Below, one piece after another: positions 1,068 through 59,537 of a stretch of DNA of 64,000 nt; position 1 is the stretch's first letter, and each line of letters starts with the position of its first letter. This DNA comes from Aquiflexum lacus (GTDB lineage: Bacteria; Bacteroidota; Bacteroidia; Cytophagales; Cyclobacteriaceae): assembly GCF_015476655.1 (NCBI RefSeq), contig NZ_JABFHF010000023.1, forward strand, positions 1 through 64,000, given 5' to 3'. The position numbers were made by a program, and so were the translations under genes. The notes under the pieces are model-generated. The model saw nothing but the letters and a program-made list of their open reading frames with translations, was not told where the DNA came from and did no database searches.

Positions 1068-1583
1068 ATGAATCTAGACCTTACAAAAATTAAAAGCATG
1101 GGGAAAAAGGTTTTCTACCCTAAAAACTTTCAATTGGTTCGAATGGAGGAGCAATGCCACGTTTTCTGGATCATCGAAAAAGGAATCGCAAGGTATATTT
1201 ATCAGGAAGGAGAACGTGAACTCACTGGCTGGTTTGATATGGAAGGAGATATTGTAGGCTCGGTATATTGTCTTCTGGGAATCGGGGGCGCTCGTGAGAA
1301 TATTCAATTATTGGAAGACTCGGAATTGATCGAAATTCAGCTTACTGATCTCCGGCAGGATGAAGCTTTTTTCCAAAACTTTAAAATGAAGGTTCTGGCC
1401 CATTATTTTATCGAAATGGAAAACAGGCTAAAGTTCTTTCAGGCTCTTGATGGTAAGGGTCGCTATTTGTATATTTTGGAAAACAAGCCACAGTTGCTTC
1501 AGCGGGTACCTTTGCATCTGATTGCTACCTTTTTGGGCCTAACACCTGAGTCCCTCAGCAGGATTCGAAGCTCGATTTCTTAA
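1068..1583 (+). CDS. Crp/Fnr-family transcriptional regulator
   Basis: The 171-residue protein has an N-terminal cyclic-nucleotide-binding-like beta-roll (about residues 10-110, with the typical WIIEKGIARYIY stretch). A dimerisation helix follows, and then a very short C-terminal helix-turn-helix whose recognition helix (LTPESLSRIRS) is almost at the C-terminus. This compact architecture, without the beta-wing end of classical Crp, is common in Bacteroidota. Whether it binds a ligand is unknown. The same-strand hydrolase gene at 1668 follows after a gap that carries a dyad and a TTTG element, so that gene is the likely target (inference). Confidence 0.85.
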   Translation: MNLDLTKIKSMGKKVFYPKNFQLVRMEEQCHVFWIIEKGIARYIYQEGERELTGWFDMEGDIVGSVYCLLGIGGARENIQLLEDSELIEIQLTDLRQDEAFFQNFKMKVLAHYFIEMENRLKFFQALDGKGRYLYILENKPQLLQRVPLHLIATFLGLTPESLSRIRSSIS

Positions 1584-1646
1584 CAAATATCAATTGCCTT
1601 CTTACCAAATGATAAGGCATGATATAAATTTTTCTAAGGAATTTTG
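1582..1646 (+). promoter_or_regulatory. Putative Crp-like operator and promoter upstream of the 1668 hydrolase
   Basis: A dyad CTTACCAAATGATAAG lies at 1601-1616 (arms CTTA/TAAG). Its centre is 34.5 bases upstream of the TTTG at 1643-1646, in the context GAATTTTG. A second site, AACAAATATC at 1582-1591, overlaps the stop codon of the regulator gene and resembles the motif at the other regulator-target gaps. The position would suit class II activation. Of the five sites this has the weakest match to the GACAAATGTC-like core. Confidence 0.45.
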
Positions 1647-1667
1647 TTGCAAACAAATTTCCATCTT

Positions 1668-2525
1668 ATGTTTTTTCCAAGTAGAATCTTACGGCTATCG
1701 TATCTATTCTTCATCCTACTTTCATCACCTCTATCTCTTTTTTCTCAGGAAAGAGGAAAAACCATCATCTTGATTCATGGTCTTTTTCAAAACAGCCATA
1801 GCTGGCACAATTGGATTACTTTTTTTGAGGAAAAAGGCTATACCGTTTACGCACCTTCCTTTCCTTACCACGATGGTGACCCTCAGGTTTTGCAAAAGGA
1901 AATTGATCCGGAATTGGTAAACCTGAACTTTCCACAAGTAATGGATTTTATGATAGCTTTTGTAGACAGTCTTCAAGAGAAGCCCATTGTCATCGGACAT
2001 TCCATTGGAGGCTTAATCACGCAGAAGCTAGTGGAAATGGATAAAGCAAGTATGGGCATTACCTTGGCTAGTGCCAACCCAAGGGGTATTTCAGTGCTGA
2101 ATTGGAAATACATCCGCTCTAATTTTCGCATGGTCAATCCGCTTCGCTCCAGGAATAAAGTTTGTCAACCACCGATGCGCTGGTTCAACTACACCTTTTT
2201 CAATACGATAATTGACTCGGCTGCGAGGGCTGAGCATCATACTTACTTTATACCTGAAAGCAGAATAATTGCCAAAACCAGTACACAGAAAGGCATGGAA
2301 ATCGATTTTGAAAAAGCGCATGTGCCTATGCTGTTCATTGCAGGCGAAAAGGACAATGACCTGCCTCCTCAATTGATTCGGAAAAATTATAAAGCTTATC
2401 ATCATAATGGATCGATCAGGCAATACCATTTATTTCCTGGAAGATCTCACTACATCGCCAGTGAACCTGGCTGGGAGGAAGTGGCTGGTTTTGTGGAAGA
2501 GTGGATCAAAGAAAGACTTGAGTAA
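1668..2525 (+). CDS. Secreted alpha/beta-hydrolase fold protein
   Basis: With the ATG at 1668 the product is 285 residues. A TTG at 1644 would add eight residues, but ATG gives a better signal peptide (hydrophobic run to about residue 25, then SQE). The fold is shown by the HGLFQN oxyanion strand near residue 36, the nucleophile elbow GHSIGG with Ser112, an Asp in EKDNDLPP near residue 229, and the His of GRSHY near residue 260. The triad is therefore complete. It is probably a periplasmic or exported esterase or lipase, and the substrate is not evident. The gene follows a Crp-like regulator and a candidate operator. Confidence 0.75.
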   Translation: MFFPSRILRLSYLFFILLSSPLSLFSQERGKTIILIHGLFQNSHSWHNWITFFEEKGYTVYAPSFPYHDGDPQVLQKEIDPELVNLNFPQVMDFMIAFVDSLQEKPIVIGHSIGGLITQKLVEMDKASMGITLASANPRGISVLNWKYIRSNFRMVNPLRSRNKVCQPPMRWFNYTFFNTIIDSAARAEHHTYFIPESRIIAKTSTQKGMEIDFEKAHVPMLFIAGEKDNDLPPQLIRKNYKAYHHNGSIRQYHLFPGRSHYIASEPGWEEVAGFVEEWIKERLE

Positions 2526-2674
2526 AAAAAATGTATACACTAAAAAACACGATAAACTCCTATTTAATCCAAACCTTAGGAAAAAGGCGAGAGGTTTTGA
2601 TTTTAGAATAGGTACCCTGCAAGTATTTAAAATTTCTATTCCATTTCGTATCATTATTCTAATTTTTTTGAGAA

Positions 2675-3937
2675 CTAATTCAGGTCTTGTTTTAAGCGTT
2701 CTAAAATAAATTCTAAAGCATCCTGATCTGTCAAAATATCAGGTGGAATACCCAAAGTGGCATTCTCTTCATTCTTTCCCGCATATTCATAGTATACAGT
2801 GCTAGTTCCACACAATAGTTTTGAATGGGGCAATTGGAAGTTAGTCACATCAATAAAACCAGAATAGGGTTGACCAATCGGTTGACCTACAATTTTGCCA
2901 ATATTGTTGAACTTAGCAGCAGCAATGATAGTGGCGGCAGAGGAATAGGTGTAGGAACCAGTCAGAAAATACACATCACCGGAATACTTATTCTTTTGAG
3001 ATTTTGGGCGAATGGGTTGAATCATTTTTTGGTTTACTTTCGTTCCCTGCATATCGTATTGATACTTTTGGTGCAGCGTATAAGGGTTTTCAGTAAGGTA
3101 GGACAGCAGCATTTCTCCAAAAAGGAAATTTCCACCTCCACTGTCCCGAAGATCAATGATCAGATTATCGATTTTTTTGTCTGATAACTCTTTAAAGGTG
3201 GTTTTGAGAAAACTGGAAAACTCACCTTTCTTTATCCCACTCATGTCAGAGAAAGTAAGAAGCCCTATTTTTCTATCCGTGATTTGAAAGTGATATTTTG
3301 GAATGTTGTTGAATTCGCTCAGGCTAAGCCATTCTTCTTTTTTGATCAGCTGAGGTGAGAGCTTGAATGTTTCATTTTCAATTAAAACTTCCATTTCTTG
3401 AACATCACCCAATAACCTGTACAAATAAAATGGAAAACTGTGTTCGATTCTTGACAAGCGATGTTCAACCGTTTCACCCCCGGCCATTTCTATTGCATTT
3501 TTTAGTATCAATGAAAAATCAATCGAGTTGATACTTTTGATTTCAGCACCTTCCAAATCAGGAAATGAATCCGGTAGAAAGGATTTAGATATGTAGGCTT
3601 TTGCATTTTTGATTTTGATTTCAAAAGAGAAAAACAAGGCATCTGCTGAGACTTCACTGTTTTGGACATAGGTATGACCGTCCTGAAATTTATTTGAATA
3701 TCCGGCAATCATTTTGGCAAAATTATTCATTGGCATCAACTCCGGAAAAACAGAAATTAAAGAATCGCAATATGCTTCAAAGTTGGGGAAGTGGCGTTCA
3801 GGTTGGGGGTGTTTTGATTGGAGGGTTTGGTTAAAAAAGCTGAGATCTGCTTTAGCTTGTGCTTTGGTAATGCTTTGGGCCATACCAATCTCATGACAGA
3901 ATAAAGTAAGCGTGATAATGGTAATAAGTACTTTCAT
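2675..3937 (-). CDS. S41-family (tail-specific type) serine peptidase, exported
   Basis: The open frame reaches 3976, but the ATG at 3937 starts a good signal peptide (MKVLITIITLTLFC to MAQS), giving 420 residues. The C-terminal half carries the S41 hallmark IDLRDSGGGNF and the segment TGSYTYSSAAT, which should hold the nucleophilic Ser. No clear PDZ domain was recognised between the two halves, so it resembles the retinol-binding-like S41 proteins of Bacteroidota rather than a classical CtpA processing protease. It is convergent with the hydrolase gene at 1668 and divergent from the Crp-like gene at 4083. The physiological substrate is unknown. Confidence 0.8.
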   Translation of the reverse strand: MKVLITIITLTLFCHEIGMAQSITKAQAKADLSFFNQTLQSKHPQPERHFPNFEAYCDSLISVFPELMPMNNFAKMIAGYSNKFQDGHTYVQNSEVSADALFFSFEIKIKNAKAYISKSFLPDSFPDLEGAEIKSINSIDFSLILKNAIEMAGGETVEHRLSRIEHSFPFYLYRLLGDVQEMEVLIENETFKLSPQLIKKEEWLSLSEFNNIPKYHFQITDRKIGLLTFSDMSGIKKGEFSSFLKTTFKELSDKKIDNLIIDLRDSGGGNFLFGEMLLSYLTENPYTLHQKYQYDMQGTKVNQKMIQPIRPKSQKNKYSGDVYFLTGSYTYSSAATIIAAAKFNNIGKIVGQPIGQPYSGFIDVTNFQLPHSKLLCGTSTVYYEYAGKNEENATLGIPPDILTDQDALEFILERLKQDLN

Positions 3938-4082
3938 TACTGGTAAATATGGTTTAAATACCTTAATTTCTGGCACTACTTCAAAGTTGTCAACCCAATT
4001 TTAATGTATTCTTGAAAACTAAATCAACATCGTAAAAATAACTTATTTGTAACAGTTTTGTGTGATTGATGTTAAGATTCCA

Positions 4083-4661
4083 ATGAAAACCTTGCTCATT
4101 TCCAGTATAAACAAACAAATCCAACTGAACCCACAAGAAGAAGCGGACGCCATTTTGGCTTTTGGCCAAACATTGACACTTCCTAAAGACCAGCTTCTCT
4201 ATCCAATCAATGGAGTTTGCAAGTACATTTACTTTATTGAAAAAGGTATTATTCGTCATTCATACAATTCTGAATCTGGGGAAAATATCACCTGCGATTT
4301 TTCAATGGAAGGTCAGTTTTTGACTGATTATGGGAGTTTTACAAAAAATGAACTAAGTCTTTATCAGTTTCAAGCGATGGAGGAAGTACTTTACTTGAAA
4401 ATCAATTTAAGTGATTTGTCAAAGTTATATGCCAGCTATCCCAAAATTGAAACTTTTGGCCGCCTGATAGCCGAGCAAACTGCCCAACGCATCACCCAAA
4501 TGGCCCGAAGCTTAATCAGCGAAAAAGCTGCTTACAGATACGAACGCCTCCTTAAAGAACGCCCCGACCTGCTACAACGTGTGCCCCAAAAGTACATAGC
4601 TGCCTATTTGGGCATCAAACCCGAATCGCTTAGCCGTATTCGAAAAACCTACTCCAATTAG
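4083..4661 (+). CDS. Crp/Fnr-family transcriptional regulator
   Basis: The 192-residue protein starts at the ATG at 4083; a GTG at 4062 is a weaker alternative. The cNMP-binding-like roll (ICKYIYFIEKGIIRHSY around residues 43-60) is followed by a dimer helix and a minimal C-terminal HTH, YIAAYLGIKPESLSRIRKTY. It is a paralogue of the regulators at 1068, 5579, 6800 and 57380. The beta-barrel gene at 4749 starts 87 bases after its stop, and a TTAACAATTGTCAA dyad lies between them. Control of that gene, possibly with feedback on the regulator, is inferred. Confidence 0.87.
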   Translation: MKTLLISSINKQIQLNPQEEADAILAFGQTLTLPKDQLLYPINGVCKYIYFIEKGIIRHSYNSESGENITCDFSMEGQFLTDYGSFTKNELSLYQFQAMEEVLYLKINLSDLSKLYASYPKIETFGRLIAEQTAQRITQMARSLISEKAAYRYERLLKERPDLLQRVPQKYIAAYLGIKPESLSRIRKTYSN

Positions 4662-4668
4662 TCGTTTC

Positions 4669-4712
4669 TTAACAATTGTCAACGTCCTATGATTTTCCTT
4701 TTCTGAATTTTG
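4669..4712 (+). promoter_or_regulatory. Putative Crp-like operator and promoter upstream of the 4749 barrel gene
   Basis: The near-perfect palindrome TTAACAATTGTCAA lies at 4669-4682 (core AACAATTGTC 4671-4680). Its centre is exactly 33.5 bases upstream of TTTG at 4709-4712, in the context GAATTTTG. The same spacing is found upstream of the genes at 6205, 7531 and 58047. This layout fits an activator site just upstream of the -33 region of a Bacteroidota promoter. Confidence 0.6.
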
Positions 4713-4748
4713 GTGGAAATAATTCATTTATCCAAAATTATAGAAATC

Positions 4749-5363
4749 ATGAAAAAATCAATTGTTCTTATCCTGATAGTTTGTGGCTTGACTAGCAAAC
4801 TGTTTGCCCAAGACCGTACCAAAGTAGGCACTCTTTTATTTGGTAATAAAGATGCCCCAAGCCCATTGATGCTGTCGGTGGACGCCTATCCCTTTTTGTT
4901 TTTGGCCAACGGAGGTGGGGGGTCCATAGGTCTGGAGTTTAACCACTGGCAGGTTGGTCTGATTGGGTTTTCGGTAGTGCCTCCTGATTTCATTAAGAAT
5001 ACCTTTTTCCAAAATGCTGAAGGTGTAAATATTAGAAGAAACTCGGCAGCTGAACTGTACGCCAGATATTACTTGCGGCCTGACAGAAAAGGAATTTACA
5101 TTAGTGTGTTGGGTGGTCCTGAGTGGTTTGTTATGGAAGATAACGACACCAAAGTGACCGAGTCATTGGTGAAATCTTATGTGGTACCCAACCTAGGATT
5201 TAGAGTATTCCCCTTCAAAGAGTATTTTTACTTCGATGCCAGTTTTGGCTATAGTTTTAATTTATCAGGCACGGAAGAAAGGATACTTGGAGCTGCCAGA
5301 TACAGTGCTTCAAAGGGAGGAATGATCTACTTCTTTCAACTGGGTGTACGGTTTAGGTTGTAA
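4749..5363 (+). CDS. Outer-membrane beta-barrel protein
   Basis: With the ATG at 4749 the product is 204 residues and starts with MKKSIVLILIVCGL and cleavage near LFAQ. An upstream TTG at 4710 lies within the putative -7 promoter element, so it cannot be the start if that promoter is real. The mature part is rich in aromatic and glycine residues with alternating strand patterns, and it ends in Val-Arg-Phe-Arg-Leu. It is probably a small barrel or porin-like protein of unknown cargo. The preceding regulator gene and the dyad in the gap suggest that this is its target. Confidence 0.65.
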   Translation: MKKSIVLILIVCGLTSKLFAQDRTKVGTLLFGNKDAPSPLMLSVDAYPFLFLANGGGGSIGLEFNHWQVGLIGFSVVPPDFIKNTFFQNAEGVNIRRNSAAELYARYYLRPDRKGIYISVLGGPEWFVMEDNDTKVTESLVKSYVVPNLGFRVFPFKEYFYFDASFGYSFNLSGTEERILGAARYSASKGGMIYFFQLGVRFRL

Positions 5364-5578
5364 GTAAAAAAAACACAGGCATCTTTTTACAATGGTTTAT
5401 TTTCTTTGCTGGAAGGTAAGTGTATAAAATCTGTTGGATTTGAAAGCTATCCAATGTATTCAATCATAATCCTACCGGTGGTGTTCTCAATTCAAAAAAA
5501 GTTTCCGATCAAAAGCTAATATAAAATTCGGACTAACTAATTTTAACAAATCGAATCAATCAAATATCAAAAAGTCAA

Positions 5579-6142
5579 ATGGAAAGATATCTCAAATCAT
5601 TTAACATACTTACGGATAAAGAAATTGAGCATTTTGTTCAATCCACGTCCCAAATGATGCTCAACAAAGGGGATTACTTTATTCAGGAAGGAGAGGTTTG
5701 TGATAAAGTAGCATTTGTAAAAAGCGGAACTTTACGTTCTTATTACGTTTCGGAAAAAGGTGAAGAAATCACCTATTGCATCATTTTTCCAAACAATTTA
5801 ATGGCAGCCTATTCTTCATTTATTTCCGGCAAAACCACCGAAGAAAACATGCAGGCGCTAACTTTCACGGAACTTTCAGTAATTCCCAAAAAAACCATCC
5901 TTGAATTTGCCAACAATAGTCACAATTGGGTTGAATTTTTAAAAGTCATGGCCGAACAACAGTATCTTGAACTCGAAAAGCGCATTTTTCAGATGCAGAA
6001 AAACCATGCACTTAACCGTTATACTGACCTGATAAATAATCAACCGGAATATGTGCAAAAAATCCCGCTACAGTATCTGGCTTCCTATTTAGGAATTACG
6101 CAAAGGCATTTAAGTAGAATCAGAAGAGAAATTTCTATTTAG
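5579..6142 (+). CDS. Crp/Fnr-family transcriptional regulator
   Basis: The 187-residue protein has the cNMP-binding-like domain (residues about 20-120, with GDYFIQEGEVCDKVAFVKSG) and a short terminal HTH, YLASYLGITQRHLSRIRREI. The sequence is closest to the regulator at 6800; both share the LGIT.RHLSRIR recognition helix, suggesting overlapping DNA specificity. The AT-rich gap of about 215 bases before it shows no clear palindrome. The flavodoxin-fold reductase gene at 6205 follows, with a GACAAATGTC site starting at the last base of the stop codon. Confidence 0.87.
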   Translation: MERYLKSFNILTDKEIEHFVQSTSQMMLNKGDYFIQEGEVCDKVAFVKSGTLRSYYVSEKGEEITYCIIFPNNLMAAYSSFISGKTTEENMQALTFTELSVIPKKTILEFANNSHNWVEFLKVMAEQQYLELEKRIFQMQKNHALNRYTDLINNQPEYVQKIPLQYLASYLGITQRHLSRIRREISI

Positions 6143-6183
6143 ACAAATGTCCTACAGAAACAAAGGCATTATGCCCACTTTTG
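6142..6183 (+). promoter_or_regulatory. Putative Crp-like operator and promoter upstream of the 6205 reductase gene
   Basis: The palindrome GACAAATGTC lies at 6142-6151, starting at the last base of the upstream regulator's stop codon. Its centre is 33.5 bases upstream of TTTG at 6180-6183 (context CACTTTTG). An identical decamer with identical spacing is found at 7462. The TTTG element is 21 bases before the chosen ATG at 6205, so a short leader is expected. Confidence 0.62.
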
Positions 6184-6204
6184 CTTGCGAATAAAGTCAA
6201 TTTA

Positions 6205-6789
6205 ATGATGAGCAAGAAAGTAGTTTTAATCAATGGACACCCCAACAAAGATGCCTTTAATTTTGCACTGGCAGAGGCTTACAAAAGGGGATGTGAATAC
6301 ACGGGAGCTGAAATCAAGGAGATTACAGTAGCAGATTTGAGTTTCAATCCTAATCTGCAATTTGGCTATCAGAAAAGAACAGAACTTGAGCCGGATTTAC
6401 TGGAAGCGTGGGAAAAAATCAAATGGGCAAACCATTTGGTTTGGGTCCATCCGGTATGGTGGGGAGGCCTTCCTGCCATAACCAAGGGTTTTATTGACCG
6501 GCTATTTTTACCCGGTTTTGCATTTCAATACCGAGAGAATTCTATCTGGTGGGATAAGCTATTGGTAGGTAAAACAGCACATATCATTACAACGTTAGAC
6601 CAACCGAAATGGACCTATTGGTTGTTATTTGGGAAAGCCAGTGTAAACCAATTAAGAAAGTCTACTTTAGAGTTTTGTGGCGTAAAGCCTGTAAAAGTGA
6701 CTTACTTAGGCCCTATAAGAAAGGCTGACTCTTCTAAAAAGGAAAGATGGTTGAAAAAGACCGAAGATTTAGGAAGGAAACTACAATAG
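6205..6789 (+). CDS. Flavodoxin-fold NAD(P)H:quinone oxidoreductase-like protein
   Basis: The product is about 194 residues. The N-terminal strand KKVVLINGHPNKDAFN is the phosphate-binding loop of the Flavodoxin_2 family, and VHPVWWGGLPAITKGFIDRLF is the conserved flavin and substrate segment seen in quinone reductases and MdaB/KefF-like proteins. It probably reduces quinones or similar electrophiles with two electrons, in the cytoplasm. The start is uncertain between adjacent ATGs at 6205 and 6208; the frame extends to 6181, which would overlap the putative promoter. It sits between two Crp-like genes, and only 10 bases separate it from the next one, so it may be co-transcribed with it. Confidence 0.8.
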   Translation: MMSKKVVLINGHPNKDAFNFALAEAYKRGCEYTGAEIKEITVADLSFNPNLQFGYQKRTELEPDLLEAWEKIKWANHLVWVHPVWWGGLPAITKGFIDRLFLPGFAFQYRENSIWWDKLLVGKTAHIITTLDQPKWTYWLLFGKASVNQLRKSTLEFCGVKPVKVTYLGPIRKADSSKKERWLKKTEDLGRKLQ

Positions 6790-6799
6790 AATTTAATTT

Positions 6800-7366
6800 A
6801 TGCAGCTTACCCTCGATATATTTTTAAGTAAAGGCTTTACAAAAGCCCAGGCAGAATTACTTTCAGAAAACTTTTCCCTTTCCAGGAAAATTTCAGAGGG
6901 AGAGTATTTTATACAAGAAGGACAAACCTGCCATCATATTGCCATCATACTCAAGGGGCAGTTTCGCTATTTTTACAATACGGAAGCTGGTGATGTTACC
7001 CGCTGGATTTCTCTTCAGGGGGATTTTATGACTTCTTTGTCAAGTTTTATTCAGGAAAAATCTGCTGTAGAAAATATCCAAGCCATCAAGGACAGTGAGT
7101 TGGTGATGATCCCTAAAAGTGCATGGAAAGAGCTTTATGCCAAGCACGAGTTTATTCGTCAATTTTGGTTGAGGACGATTGAATTGAATTATATAGGCAT
7201 GGAAGAAAGAGTCTTCAACCAAATCGCTTTGAGTGCTGAGGAAAGATACCGCTGGATGCTGGAGCATTATCCTCGGTTTAACCAAGAAGTGCCTGATAAG
7301 TATATTGCTTCTATGCTGGGTATAACTCCACGACACTTGAGTAGGATTAGGGCAGCGAAAAACTAA
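6800..7366 (+). CDS. Crp/Fnr-family transcriptional regulator
   Basis: The 188-residue protein has a cNMP-binding-like roll (EGEYFIQEGQTCHHIAIILK, residues about 33-52), a dimerisation helix and a minimal C-terminal HTH, YIASMLGITPRHLSRIR. It begins 10 bases after the reductase gene, probably in one operon with it, and is a close paralogue of the regulator at 5579. The next same-strand gene, a beta-barrel gene at 7531, has a GACAAATGTC palindrome and TTTG element in its upstream region, identical to those upstream of the reductase gene. Confidence 0.87.
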   Translation: MQLTLDIFLSKGFTKAQAELLSENFSLSRKISEGEYFIQEGQTCHHIAIILKGQFRYFYNTEAGDVTRWISLQGDFMTSLSSFIQEKSAVENIQAIKDSELVMIPKSAWKELYAKHEFIRQFWLRTIELNYIGMEERVFNQIALSAEERYRWMLEHYPRFNQEVPDKYIASMLGITPRHLSRIRAAKN

Positions 7367-7461
7367 AGCAAAAACCTTACTTAGCTCAATTCTCTACCAA
7401 TCTGCTGAACACCTTCTAAGATTCGTTTTGTATGAGCGGCAGATGGCTTTTTCATTAAATA

Positions 7462-7503
7462 GACAAATGTCATTTCTACCATCTCTTCCATACCCTTCCT
7501 TTG
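7462..7503 (+). promoter_or_regulatory. Putative Crp-like operator and promoter upstream of the 7531 barrel gene
   Basis: The palindrome GACAAATGTC lies at 7462-7471. Its centre is 33.5 bases upstream of TTTG at 7500-7503 (context TTCCTTTG), and the start codon is 28 bases after the element. Unlike the other four sites it lies about 95 bases from the end of the regulator gene, so the motif is not a by-product of conserved C-terminal codons. Confidence 0.62.
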
Positions 7504-7530: not shown

Positions 7531-8196
7531 ATGAAAAAATTACTCTTTACAATCGCATTATTTGTCATCGCTCATATCAGTATGGCGCAAGAACCTAAAA
7601 AATCAGCTCCTGAAGTGAGTCTGGTATTTGGGTTGACACAACCTATCTTTACCAATGGGTTTAATTTTGAAGTAGATTTTTGGTGGGAGCGGTGGATGAT
7701 TGATTATTCCCATGGGCTTGGTTTGGAATTTACCGGTGCCAATGTTCATCAGGAAGCTGCCGACCAGCGTTTGGCTTTCAACATTACTCATTCCACTGGC
7801 ATTGGCATAGGCTATCGGGTCACCAAAGGACTTAATATCCGGGTTGAACCCAAATGGCACATTTGGGAAATGTATTATGAGGATGCCTTCAAAACAGAAG
7901 CGGGTAAAATTACCCAATATAGCACCTATACTTTAGGGCTTGGTGCCTATTACAGATGGACTCCTTTTGAGAAAAAAGACAATACACTTAAAGGCCTCAC
8001 CATCGCTCCAAGCGCTAGGTGGTGGCCCAATGTGGGTAGCAGTTTGGAAAACAATGAATTCACCTACACCAACAGCCGTACCGAAAGAGTTGAAGTCCAC
8101 AGGGCAAATAATATCGGGATGGGCAATACCCCCTTCTTTGTGAATGTGAGTATTGGGTATACCTTTGGAATGGGAAAAAATAAAGTATATATGTAG
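7531..8196 (+). CDS. Outer-membrane beta-barrel protein
   Basis: The 221-residue product has a signal peptide (MKKLLFTIALFVIAHISMAQ) and a mature region of Trp- and Tyr-rich amphipathic strands, such as VEPKWHIWEMYYE. It includes GIGIGYRVTKGLNIRVE, typical of barrel hairpins, and an aromatic-rich end (SIGYTFGMGKNKVYM). No catalytic motif is seen. It is the presumed target of the regulator at 6800 through the palindrome at 7462. Confidence 0.65.
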   Translation: MKKLLFTIALFVIAHISMAQEPKKSAPEVSLVFGLTQPIFTNGFNFEVDFWWERWMIDYSHGLGLEFTGANVHQEAADQRLAFNITHSTGIGIGYRVTKGLNIRVEPKWHIWEMYYEDAFKTEAGKITQYSTYTLGLGAYYRWTPFEKKDNTLKGLTIAPSARWWPNVGSSLENNEFTYTNSRTERVEVHRANNIGMGNTPFFVNVSIGYTFGMGKNKVYM

Positions 8197-57379: not shown

Positions 57380-57973
57380 ATGGAGAAAGAGTTTCAATTC
57401 TATTCTGATTTATTTATGGAACAATTTCCATTATTGAGCCTGGAGGCAAAAAAATTCACACGTTCTATTTTAACCCTTAGAAAATATGATAAAAAAGAGT
57501 ACTTATTTAAAAGCGGCGGAATACAAAAAGAAGTCTGCTACGTTTGTCAAGGCCTTTTAAGAAAGTATTATATCAATGAAAAAGGGAATGAAATAATCAC
57601 AGGTTTCATCAGTGAGAAAGGATATGCCACCGACTATCCTTCCTTTTCAAGACAAAAACCCTCTAAGTATCATATAGAATGTCTCGAACCTTCTATAATT
57701 CTTTTCATGCCTTATGATAAACTACAAGAGGCTTATCGGACTTATAAAGACAGCGAAATGTACGGTAGGCTAACAGCGGAAATGGTTTTAACAAGAGAAA
57801 CAGATAGAGTCGAAAGTTTTTTATTTGAGAATGCAGAAGAGAGATATCTCAAATTTATATCTGCTAACAAAGACCTTATGAATAGGATAAGCTTATCCCA
57901 TTTGGCTTCCTATCTAGGAATTGAGCGACAATCACTGACCAGGATACGAAGTAAACTTGCCAAGAAACAATAA
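57380..57973 (+). CDS. Crp/Fnr-family transcriptional regulator
   Basis: The 197-residue protein has a cNMP-binding-like roll (KKEYLFKSGGIQKEVCYVCQG, residues about 37-58), a dimerisation helix with the usual ETDRVESFLFENAEERY region, and a terminal minimal HTH, LASYLGIERQSLTRIRSKLA. It is the fifth paralogue of the set in region 1 but lies 50 kb away. Downstream, after a dyad and a TTTG element, is the carbon-nitrogen hydrolase gene at 58047, its presumed target. The region upstream (57155-57379) has no clear operator. Confidence 0.86.
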   Translation: MEKEFQFYSDLFMEQFPLLSLEAKKFTRSILTLRKYDKKEYLFKSGGIQKEVCYVCQGLLRKYYINEKGNEIITGFISEKGYATDYPSFSRQKPSKYHIECLEPSIILFMPYDKLQEAYRTYKDSEMYGRLTAEMVLTRETDRVESFLFENAEERYLKFISANKDLMNRISLSHLASYLGIERQSLTRIRSKLAKKQ

Positions 57974-57976
57974 TGA

Positions 57977-58019
57977 AACATAGGTGTCAGGTTCAACAAA
58001 GAATTGCTGCCCATCTTTG
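57977..58019 (+). promoter_or_regulatory. Putative Crp-like operator and promoter upstream of the Lnt-like gene
   Basis: AACATAGGTGTC lies at 57977-57988 (arms ACA/TGT with a four-base spacer, unlike the two-base spacer of the other sites). Its centre is 33.5 bases upstream of TTTG at 58016-58019 (context CATCTTTG), exactly as at 4671, 6142 and 7462. Confidence 0.5.
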
Positions 58020-58046: not shown

Positions 58047-59537
58047 GTGAAAAACAATATCTTACAAAAAGTCCTTTTAGTCATCCTCTTGATTTTTTTC
58101 TCTGTAATTTCTAATGGGCAATACGCTGTCTTTTATGCTATTTGGATTTTTACAACAATGCTGCTTTTTGCGGTAAGAAAATTACCGAGGTGGCAGGGTT
58201 TCTTATTGGCGTTCTTGGTTACAGGTATAGTTTATTATATTGGCTTTGATGTAGTCCCTTTTTTACCCATTTCTATCTCAATTATTATTGCTATAATTTT
58301 TAGTTTACTCACCTCTTTACCCTACTTAATTGATTCATTTTTTTCAAAAAATCGAAAATCCTTTCAAAGCACCTTAATATTTCCATGTGCCTTTGTTTTA
58401 ATAGAATATGCTTACCATCAATTTAATCAATATGGCTCTTGGGGGCATTTTGCCTACACCCAACAAACACAACATATTTTACTTCAATCTATCTCTGTTT
58501 TTGGGATGGGTTATATTACCTTTTTAATTGCCTGGTTTGCCTCTGTTAGCAATTGGGTTTATGATCAAAGATATGAAGGGAGAAATGTAAAAAAGGGAGT
58601 TCTCATTTATGGCCTTGTTTTGGGTTTGACATTAATGTATGGTGCTTATCGTGTACAATTTCAAAATTCCAATTCTGAAACGATTCGGATAGCTTCTATT
58701 TCCGCATTGGATAGTCTTAAAGTTGGGATTGACCTTCAGGGAATAAATAATAAAGAAACTGAAAATGAAGCTATAATTGAAACTAAAAGAAATACATCGA
58801 AATTAAATCAATATTTATTTGACATAAGTATCAAAGAAGCAGAAGCTGGGGCAAAAATAGTTTTTTGGGCGGAAGGCAATGGTGTAATTTTAAAAGAAGA
58901 CGAAAGTGAATTATATGATCAAGCCAGGGAAATAGCTTATACCCAAAATATATATTTAGGTTTGGGCATAGCGGTAATAGACCCAGCAAATAGCAGATTT
59001 CTTGAAAATAAATTTGTTTTATTTGACCGAAATGGTAAAAAGGTTATGGATTATTGGAAGGGTATTTCAGTACCTGGTGCCGAAGCCCCGATTAGCAATA
59101 ATAAAACTACCGGAATCCAAAAAATAGAAACAGACTATGGTACCATTGCAGGAGCAATATGCTTTGATTTAGATTTTCCAAATTATTTAAAAGAGGCTAA
59201 AGGTTCAGACATACTGTTGGCACCAAGTAATGATTATAAAGAAATTGACCAATTACACACTAATATGGCTAAGTTTAGAGCCATAGAACAAGGTTTTAAT
59301 TTGATTAGACAAGCTAGCTTAGGCCATTCTATAGGGACAGATTATACAGGAAAGGTAATTAGTGAAATGAATCATTTTACGGATACCAGTAAAGTACTGA
59401 TTACGCAACTTCCGACAAAAGGAACGAAGACAATATATGCTGTCATTGGAGATAGTTTCATTGTATTTTGTATATTCTTGCTGGGTTTGGTTATTATAGT
59501 TCTTAAAAGGAAAAGAATAGGTAGGAAAGCTAGTTGA
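58047..59537 (+). CDS. Apolipoprotein N-acyltransferase-like carbon-nitrogen hydrolase membrane protein
   Basis: The GTG at 58047 gives 496 residues, after the proposed promoter; a GTG at 57984 would start within it. The N-terminal half has about six membrane helices and the C-terminal half is a CN-hydrolase domain. The catalytic triad is visible: Glu276 in WAEGN, Lys338 in DYWKG, Cys372 in GAICFD. Full Lnt proteins have this architecture, so a lipoprotein- or amide-modifying acyltransferase is likely, although whether it replaces or duplicates the essential Lnt cannot be told. It ends with a C-terminal membrane helix. Confidence 0.8.
   Translation: MKNNILQKVLLVILLIFFSVISNGQYAVFYAIWIFTTMLLFAVRKLPRWQGFLLAFLVTGIVYYIGFDVVPFLPISISIIIAIIFSLLTSLPYLIDSFFSKNRKSFQSTLIFPCAFVLIEYAYHQFNQYGSWGHFAYTQQTQHILLQSISVFGMGYITFLIAWFASVSNWVYDQRYEGRNVKKGVLIYGLVLGLTLMYGAYRVQFQNSNSETIRIASISALDSLKVGIDLQGINNKETENEAIIETKRNTSKLNQYLFDISIKEAEAGAKIVFWAEGNGVILKEDESELYDQAREIAYTQNIYLGLGIAVIDPANSRFLENKFVLFDRNGKKVMDYWKGISVPGAEAPISNNKTTGIQKIETDYGTIAGAICFDLDFPNYLKEAKGSDILLAPSNDYKEIDQLHTNMAKFRAIEQGFNLIRQASLGHSIGTDYTGKVISEMNHFTDTSKVLITQLPTKGTKTIYAVIGDSFIVFCIFLLGLVIIVLKRKRIGRKAS

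Follow-up and report, generated by a model that had tools for sequence, protein, structure and literature searches.

Many short Crp/Fnr-type regulators of Bacteroidota are followed by predicted operators at a fixed distance from the -7 element of the adjacent gene

Which genes do the short Crp/Fnr-type regulators of Aquiflexum lacus control, and from which sites? The question is raised by positions 1 to 64,000 of contig NZ_JABFHF010000023.1 (assembly GCF_015476655.1), the whole stretch of DNA analysed and hereafter called the window. The window contains five such genes of 171-197 residues, starting at positions 1068, 4083, 5579, 6800, and 57380, and each is followed by a same-strand gene of another kind. 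An earlier note on this DNA had described these five pairs and proposed that each regulator activates the gene behind it from an inverted repeat (dyad) placed at a fixed distance before a promoter TTTG. The pairs are borne out by gene calls and by matches to PF00027, and the pattern is real, general, and broader than the note claimed. Very probably, the short regulators are Crp/Fnr-type activators, each acting on the adjacent gene from its own dyad in a class II position.

The spacing between dyad and promoter was determined by scoring dyads as matching pairs out of eight and measuring the distance from the dyad centre to TTTG. The A. lacus genome has 28 matches to PF00027; members outside the window were fetched, and 24 gaps, including the five of the window, were analysed. 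Over all TTTG and all offsets, dyads of at least 6/8 pairs occur seven times at 33.5 bases, three times at 34.5, and at most twice elsewhere. A wider set of loci was drawn from searches of genomes from the family (148) and the phylum (198), taking the best matches, up to 30 per search, together with 120 further places hand-picked from match lists, their gaps unseen at picking. Records needed at least 90 bases behind the gene to be kept, and a redundancy filter reduced 292 records to 281 gaps, or 276 without the window's five. In these 276 gaps, a dyad of at least 6/8 pairs lies 33.5 bases before 87 of 643 TTTG (5.1 expected; Poisson p 6e-74); the enrichment that the earlier note had predicted thus appears with its own five cases removed. 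At 34.5 the count is 14 of 640 (5.0 expected), and each of the remaining offsets among the 50 tested has at most 12 dyads. When GTTT, CAAA, AAAC, TTTA, TTTC, or TTTT serves as the anchor instead of TTTG, 2-7 dyads are found at 33.5 and 1-6 at 34.5. Gaps upstream of the regulators yield five dyads for 479 TTTG at 33.5 and seven at 34.5 (background about 0.8%), and gaps behind 505 other open frames, which are mechanical calls and not checked genes, yield 10 for 873 TTTG at 33.5. With the threshold at 5/8 pairs, 178 of the 281 genes carry the arrangement, compared with a mean of 43.8 at control offsets. Six sites in 27 genes from other classes of the phylum (0.69 expected) indicate that it extends past one class, albeit in small numbers.

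The anchor itself is recovered when it is ignored. Ninety-six strong dyads (at least 7/8 pairs) selected without regard to TTTG are followed by A at 30.5 bases (0.56) and by T, T, T, and G at 33.5-36.5 (0.59-0.70), which is the Bacteroidota -7 element, TAnnTTTG; the T at 29.5 is weak (0.39 vs 0.30). The dyad centre lies 30.5 bases before the A of this element. Class II sites of CRP and FNR are centred at -41.5, and if the TA occupies -12/-11, the dyad centre is likewise at -41.5. Counted from the -7 element, the dyad has the position of a class II site, which overlaps the promoter at its upstream end. The arrangement also depends on the orientation of the next gene: among loci with 450 bases behind the regulator (4 of 281 lacked them), sites of at least 6/8 pairs are present in 101 of 233 with a co-directional next gene, 0 of 19 with a convergent one, and 3 of 25 in which the orientation is unclear (co-directional vs convergent, Fisher p 4e-5). 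The dyad centre is no more than 30 bases past the stop codon in 88 of the 101. Start codons, as predicted mechanically, follow TTTG at a median distance of 26, with a wide spread.

The regulator, a dimer by analogy, would bind its own dyad just behind, and often overlapping, its stop codon. Once bound, it would contact the RNA polymerase holding the -7 element, and this contact would start transcription of the one downstream gene. One exact spacing over many unrelated targets argues for polymerase contact and hence for activation. Adjacent-gene activation from a class II position, as the earlier note had it, is supported by the fixed spacing, the orientation dependence, and the conservation among orthologues, all of which were computed directly, as were the genes, the dyads, and the link between recognition helix and operator. 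It is from these that we infer binding, polymerase contact, activation rather than repression, and the start site.

Conservation is most complete behind the 5579 regulator, whose protein was the sole query of the orthologue search. GACAnnTGTC lies exactly 33.5 bases before TTTG in 17 of 17 orthologues (54-88% identity) from Pararhodonellum, Galbibacter, Flavobacterium, Chryseobacterium, Flavihumibacter, and a metagenome-assembled genome of the Bernardetiaceae, and in all 17 its first G is the final base of the stop codon, while the spacer diverges. The closest species-named genome is that of Pararhodonellum marinum, in which the 5579 protein has 88% identity. The claim of the earlier note hung on conservation in orthologous loci, and here both the dyad and its distance to TTTG are kept. 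An eighteenth locus, from a 30% relative, is without the site. Among 11 further relatives of the same family (48-88% identity; one of them, L033, is probably the same gene as L331), GACAnnTGTC is found at 33.5 in seven. Close orthologues of the 4083 (L093), 6800 (L064, L065), and 57380 (L152-L155) regulators likewise keep their own dyads. The targets behind the 5579 orthologues are exchanged: some lineages have Flavodoxin_2 there, and others have an unrelated protein that in part resembles Epimerase; of six targets scanned, those in L331, L333, and L344 match Flavodoxin_2, those in L332 and L334 match Epimerase weakly, and that in L341 matches nothing.

The letters of the dyad vary with the recognition helix. 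The earlier note had proposed one shared site, RACA-N2-TRTC, and this was not borne out: GACAnnTGTC is found only behind 5579 and 6800 among the window's five, 4083 has TTAACnnnnGTCAA, the site of 57380 belongs to the GTCACATATGTGAC type, and the case of 1068 is ambiguous. A motif common to the five is rejected, since the operators change from one helix class to the next. The classes were compared in the 178 regulators whose dyad is anchored on TTTG and has at least 5/8 pairs (about 44 expected by chance). Half-site consensus sequences are TTGAT or TTGAC for PET helices (n=32), TTAAC/GTCAA for PES (n=18), TTTAAC for QVS (n=15), TTTACC for QQS (n=13), TTGAAC for HEF (n=5), TTTACAT for PTQ (n=3), TTTGCC for QSS (n=3), and GACA for RHL (10 with Q before RHL and 10 with P); RQS proteins have TGTCACAT in three orthologues. 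Site letters are tied mainly to three helix residues matching CRP 180-182. In CRP numbering, mutual information links residue 180 to site position -8 (z 29), residue 181 to -5 (z 25), and residue 182 to -5 (z 23) and -3 (z 21). CRP E181 and R185 contact DNA at -5, which coincides with the link of residue 181, and CRP R180 contacts -7. Of seven proteins with the helix RETLSR, six have TGTGA or the complementary sequence no more than 6 bases from the stop codon, as CRP would predict. A looser count of TGTGA in proteins with both R180 and E181 (9/13 vs 23/268) was rejected as too generous, since three of the occurrences lie 22-23 bases before the gene end. Between pairs with less than 30% identity outside the DNA-binding end, a shared triplet raises operator agreement by 0.21 over wholly different triplets; the maximum in 200 shuffles was 0.05.

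The fixed spacing also bears on whether the regulators might bind these dyads as repressors released by a signal. A dyad near -41 can extend over a promoter element on its upstream side, repressors are common among the regulators encoded beside efflux or detoxification genes, and SDR, MFS, and small multidrug resistance families are among the targets here. A repressor, however, needs no exact spacing, yet 33.5 stands far above the rest of the 50 offsets, 34.5 being slightly raised, and no excess of sites precedes the regulators themselves (5/479 at 33.5); repression is an unlikely account. The position of so many dyads directly behind stop codons, within the 30 bases noted above in 88 of 101, would also suit terminators of transcription or hairpins in the regulator messenger RNA. 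Such structures are very improbable given that the arms are short and mostly A+T-rich, the distance to TTTG is fixed, the letters follow the recognition helix, and none of the 19 regulators with a convergent next gene has one. Short dyads are common in A+T-rich gaps, as the mean of 43.8 in 281 genes at 5/8 pairs attests, and palindromes chosen by eye could be products of chance; the 87 sites against 5.1 expected and the retention of motif and spacing in all 17 orthologues of 5579 make this scarcely credible.

Activation of the adjacent gene from the regulator's own dyad, and the code that would accompany it, must also be weighed against a number of observations that count the other way. By excess over control offsets, the arrangement is present in just about 57% of gaps, and of the 20 members listed from the A. 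lacus genome outside the window, 10 reach 5/8 pairs. Among the 11 further relatives of 5579, L036 has TTTA for TTTG, L038 has GACAAAAGTC, the dyad of L042 lies at 34.5, and a site is missing from L043. In Pararhodonellum (L063/L331), other sequence follows the 6800 orthologue, with no GACAnnTGTC in the stretch examined. In the 1068 gap, the dyad at the class II position is of the type that goes with a different helix class. Residue 180 links best to -8, a position one base farther out than the contact of R180 in CRP, with a z of 8 at -7, and RESLSR proteins, which also have R180 and E181, have TGTGA within 6 bases of the stop codon in none of five cases. Relatedness among the regulators was controlled in part only. 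When each operator was predicted from distant relatives with the regulator itself left out, 74% of bases were correct vs 65% for a fixed consensus (n=104 of 178), a modest gain, and the code is therefore real and incomplete.

The five gaps of the window, whose flanking genes and -7 elements are all on the forward strand, differ in how closely they follow the arrangement. Regulator 3 (5579-6142; helix ITQRHLSRIR) is followed by the predicted operator GACAAATGTC at 6142-6151, whose first G is the final base of the stop codon and whose centre lies 33.5 bases before TTTG at 6180 in the -7 element CACTTTTG (6176-6183). Its target, at 6205-6789 (start at 6205 or 6208), is a Flavodoxin_2 or NAD(P)H oxidoreductase-like protein by Pfam. 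The same letters, GACAAATGTC, recur at 7462-7471 behind regulator 4 (6800-7366; ITPRHLSRIR), 33.5 bases before TTTG at 7500; the -7 element TTCCTTTG (7496-7503) does not have A in its second place, and target 4 (7531-8196; 221 residues) has no Pfam match. Regulator 2 (4083-4661; IKPESLSRIR) is followed by the predicted operator TTAACAATTGTCAA at 4669-4682, with identical letters in L093 and its centre 33.5 bases before TTTG at 4709; the -7 element GAATTTTG is at 4705-4712, and target 2 (4749-5363; 204 residues) has no Pfam match. Behind regulator 5 (57380-57973; IERQSLTRIR), the predicted operator GAAACATAGGTGTC at 57975-57988 is centred at 57981.5, and the -7 element CATCTTTG at 58012-58019 precedes target 5 (58047-59537), which is apolipoprotein N-acyltransferase or CN-hydrolase-like by Pfam. 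This dyad, with a spacing of 34.5 and not 33.5, was assigned because the orthologues L152-L155 carry GTCACATATGTGAC or close forms. The dyads of the earlier note exist, and its division into four gaps at 33.5 and one at 34.5 becomes three and two. It was correct that the pattern nAnn precedes TTTG in four of five gaps; the exception is TTCC at 7496-7499.

The gap behind regulator 1 (1068-1583; LTPESLSRIR) is the weakest of the five cases. It contains two dyads: TTAACAAATATCAA at 1580-1593 (dyad A), which overlaps the stop codon, fits the PES helix class, and has its centre 56.5 bases before TTTG; and CTTACCAAATGATAAG at 1601-1616 (dyad B), centred 34.5 bases before TTTG at 1643, whose letters resemble sites of QQS and QVS helices. 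The -7 element, GAATTTTG, is at 1639-1646, and target 1 (1668-2525) is an alpha/beta hydrolase by Pfam. Both dyads are kept in L122, the sole close orthologue. Dyad B may be the site of another regulator, or the recognition code may be looser than is apparent; the two conserved, unlike dyads at 1580-1616 are possibly sites for two different paralogues.

All five regulators match PF00027, which describes the barrel of the CRP/FNR superfamily, four of them above the cut-off and regulator 1 at 25.9 bits (cut-off 27.5). None of the five has a Pfam helix-turn-helix family, and an NCBIfam scan of eight proteins returned no match near the cut-offs. In its AlphaFold model (pLDDT 95), the 5579 protein has the barrel, a long helix of the kind that forms the dimer contact in CRP, and a helix-turn-helix with helices at residues 164-170 and 175-186. 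The modelled chain ends at the recognition helix with no wing, aligned relatives also end near it, and the short regulators would accordingly appear to be a wingless CRP-like subfamily. The top fold matches of the model are Thermus CAP, GlxR, Mycobacterium tuberculosis CRP, and Aliivibrio fischeri FNR. Several genomes of the group have at least 24 matches to the short family.

Compared with CRP and FNR of Escherichia coli, the short regulators have the same fold, the same dyad register and place relative to TA, and the same letters for comparable helices, namely TTGA for E181 helices and TGTGA for RETLSR helices. They differ in the missing wing, in a family-alignment consensus without the R-S-A motif (the Arg-Ser phosphate-binding motif for cyclic AMP), in apparently having one adjacent target rather than a global regulon, and in using the Bacteroidota -7 element. 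The nearest solved relative by sequence is a cyclic nucleotide binding regulatory protein of Cytophaga hutchinsonii (PDB 3dn7), a member of this short family (E 1e-50; match to profile positions 3-188 of 189), with the same SYLG-TPEYLS-IRKK end and no wing. Within the phylum, Bacteroides BT4338 (Crp) is reported with as many as 30 genes per genome, the motif wwwTATGTTnTAnAACATAwww, and possible autoregulation (PMC3878776). BT4338 is likewise a Crp-family activator with a palindromic site, while the regulators described here have the adjacent gene as target and no excess of sites before themselves at this geometry. CrpPg of Porphyromonas gingivalis is described as a global regulator that binds DNA independently of cyclic AMP and binds its own promoter; CrpPg, PgRsp, and HcpR share phylum and superfamily with the short regulators (PMC12040651). 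TAnnTTTG is given as the Bacteroidota -7 element in passages of two reports, which do not give a position for a Crp-type activator (PMC7366714, PMC6414381). The parts of the system are thus already known; in the open literature, subscription papers being largely outside the search, neither a description of the regulator-operator-promoter layout nor a published binding site for the short family was found.

A broader proposal, which we hold with some but not great confidence, is that Bacteroidota carry, many per genome, portable cassettes of a wingless Crp-type gene with an operator and promoter at its 3' end, controlling any gene that lies downstream. Regulator and operator would stay paired while targets are exchanged, and the pairs would record the recognition code of the CRP fold and make the operators of unstudied regulators predictable. 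If so, the target, operator, and promoter of many short regulators could be read from the regulator 3' end, and the CRP-fold code could be studied through linked pairs beyond a few model proteins. The cassettes would also show where an activator stands with respect to the -7 element of Bacteroidota, itself unusual, and would offer short activator-promoter parts of differing specificity for this phylum.

The GACA-type regulators appear to be local. The A. lacus genome has 20 places with GACANNTGTC, 13-43 bases, and TTTG, compared with 25 for a reversed-pattern control, and the motif as such is therefore not enriched. At two of these places the intervening stretch is 28 bases, which corresponds to 33.5, and both lie in the window behind the two regulators with RHLSR helices; one place has 27 bases and one has 29. 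The finding of just two correctly spaced sites suggests that the 5579 and 6800 regulators act locally. To judge from their helices, which are of the same type, these two could act on each other's site. Pfam families of 100 of the 101 co-directional targets, related loci included, are led by adh_short (17), Polyketide_cyc2 (11), and MFS_1 (8), and the frequent families suggest tasks in detoxification or redox chemistry, as far as family membership is a guide. Autoregulation with the same geometry was rejected, upstream gaps being near the 0.8% background. Candidate divergent targets number 10 for 462, with about 3.6 expected, and only one of the 10 dyads, at L109, clearly fits its helix class. 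At this locus, the dyad TTGATCTACATCAA lies upstream of the regulator on the reverse strand, 33.5 bases before TTTG, and maybe serves a divergent target.

Other features were encountered among the loci. Three or four such regulators are clustered within 6-20 kb at L289 (G097:C26:48500-68400) and at 1068-7366 of the window. Of four MERESLSR regulators from a different class of the phylum, L205, L217, and L223, but not L215, carry TGTAAC-N4-GTCAAT at the stop codon or past it and no TTTG at the usual spacing within the stretch examined, which perhaps reflects a different promoter type. Repeated stretches of the GGAACCATATAAGG type occupy 5324-6250 of L331, behind the 6800 orthologue of P. marinum, and repeats with CCTTTGGGGTTTCCAAAAACCCC stand where the operator would be expected behind the QVSLSR regulator of L030. 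L014, at the end of contig C22, and L015, at the start of C66, encode regulators that are 95% identical and have the common core dyad TTGACTTTGGTCAA; a recent duplicate may be the reason why the assembly breaks at these contig ends.

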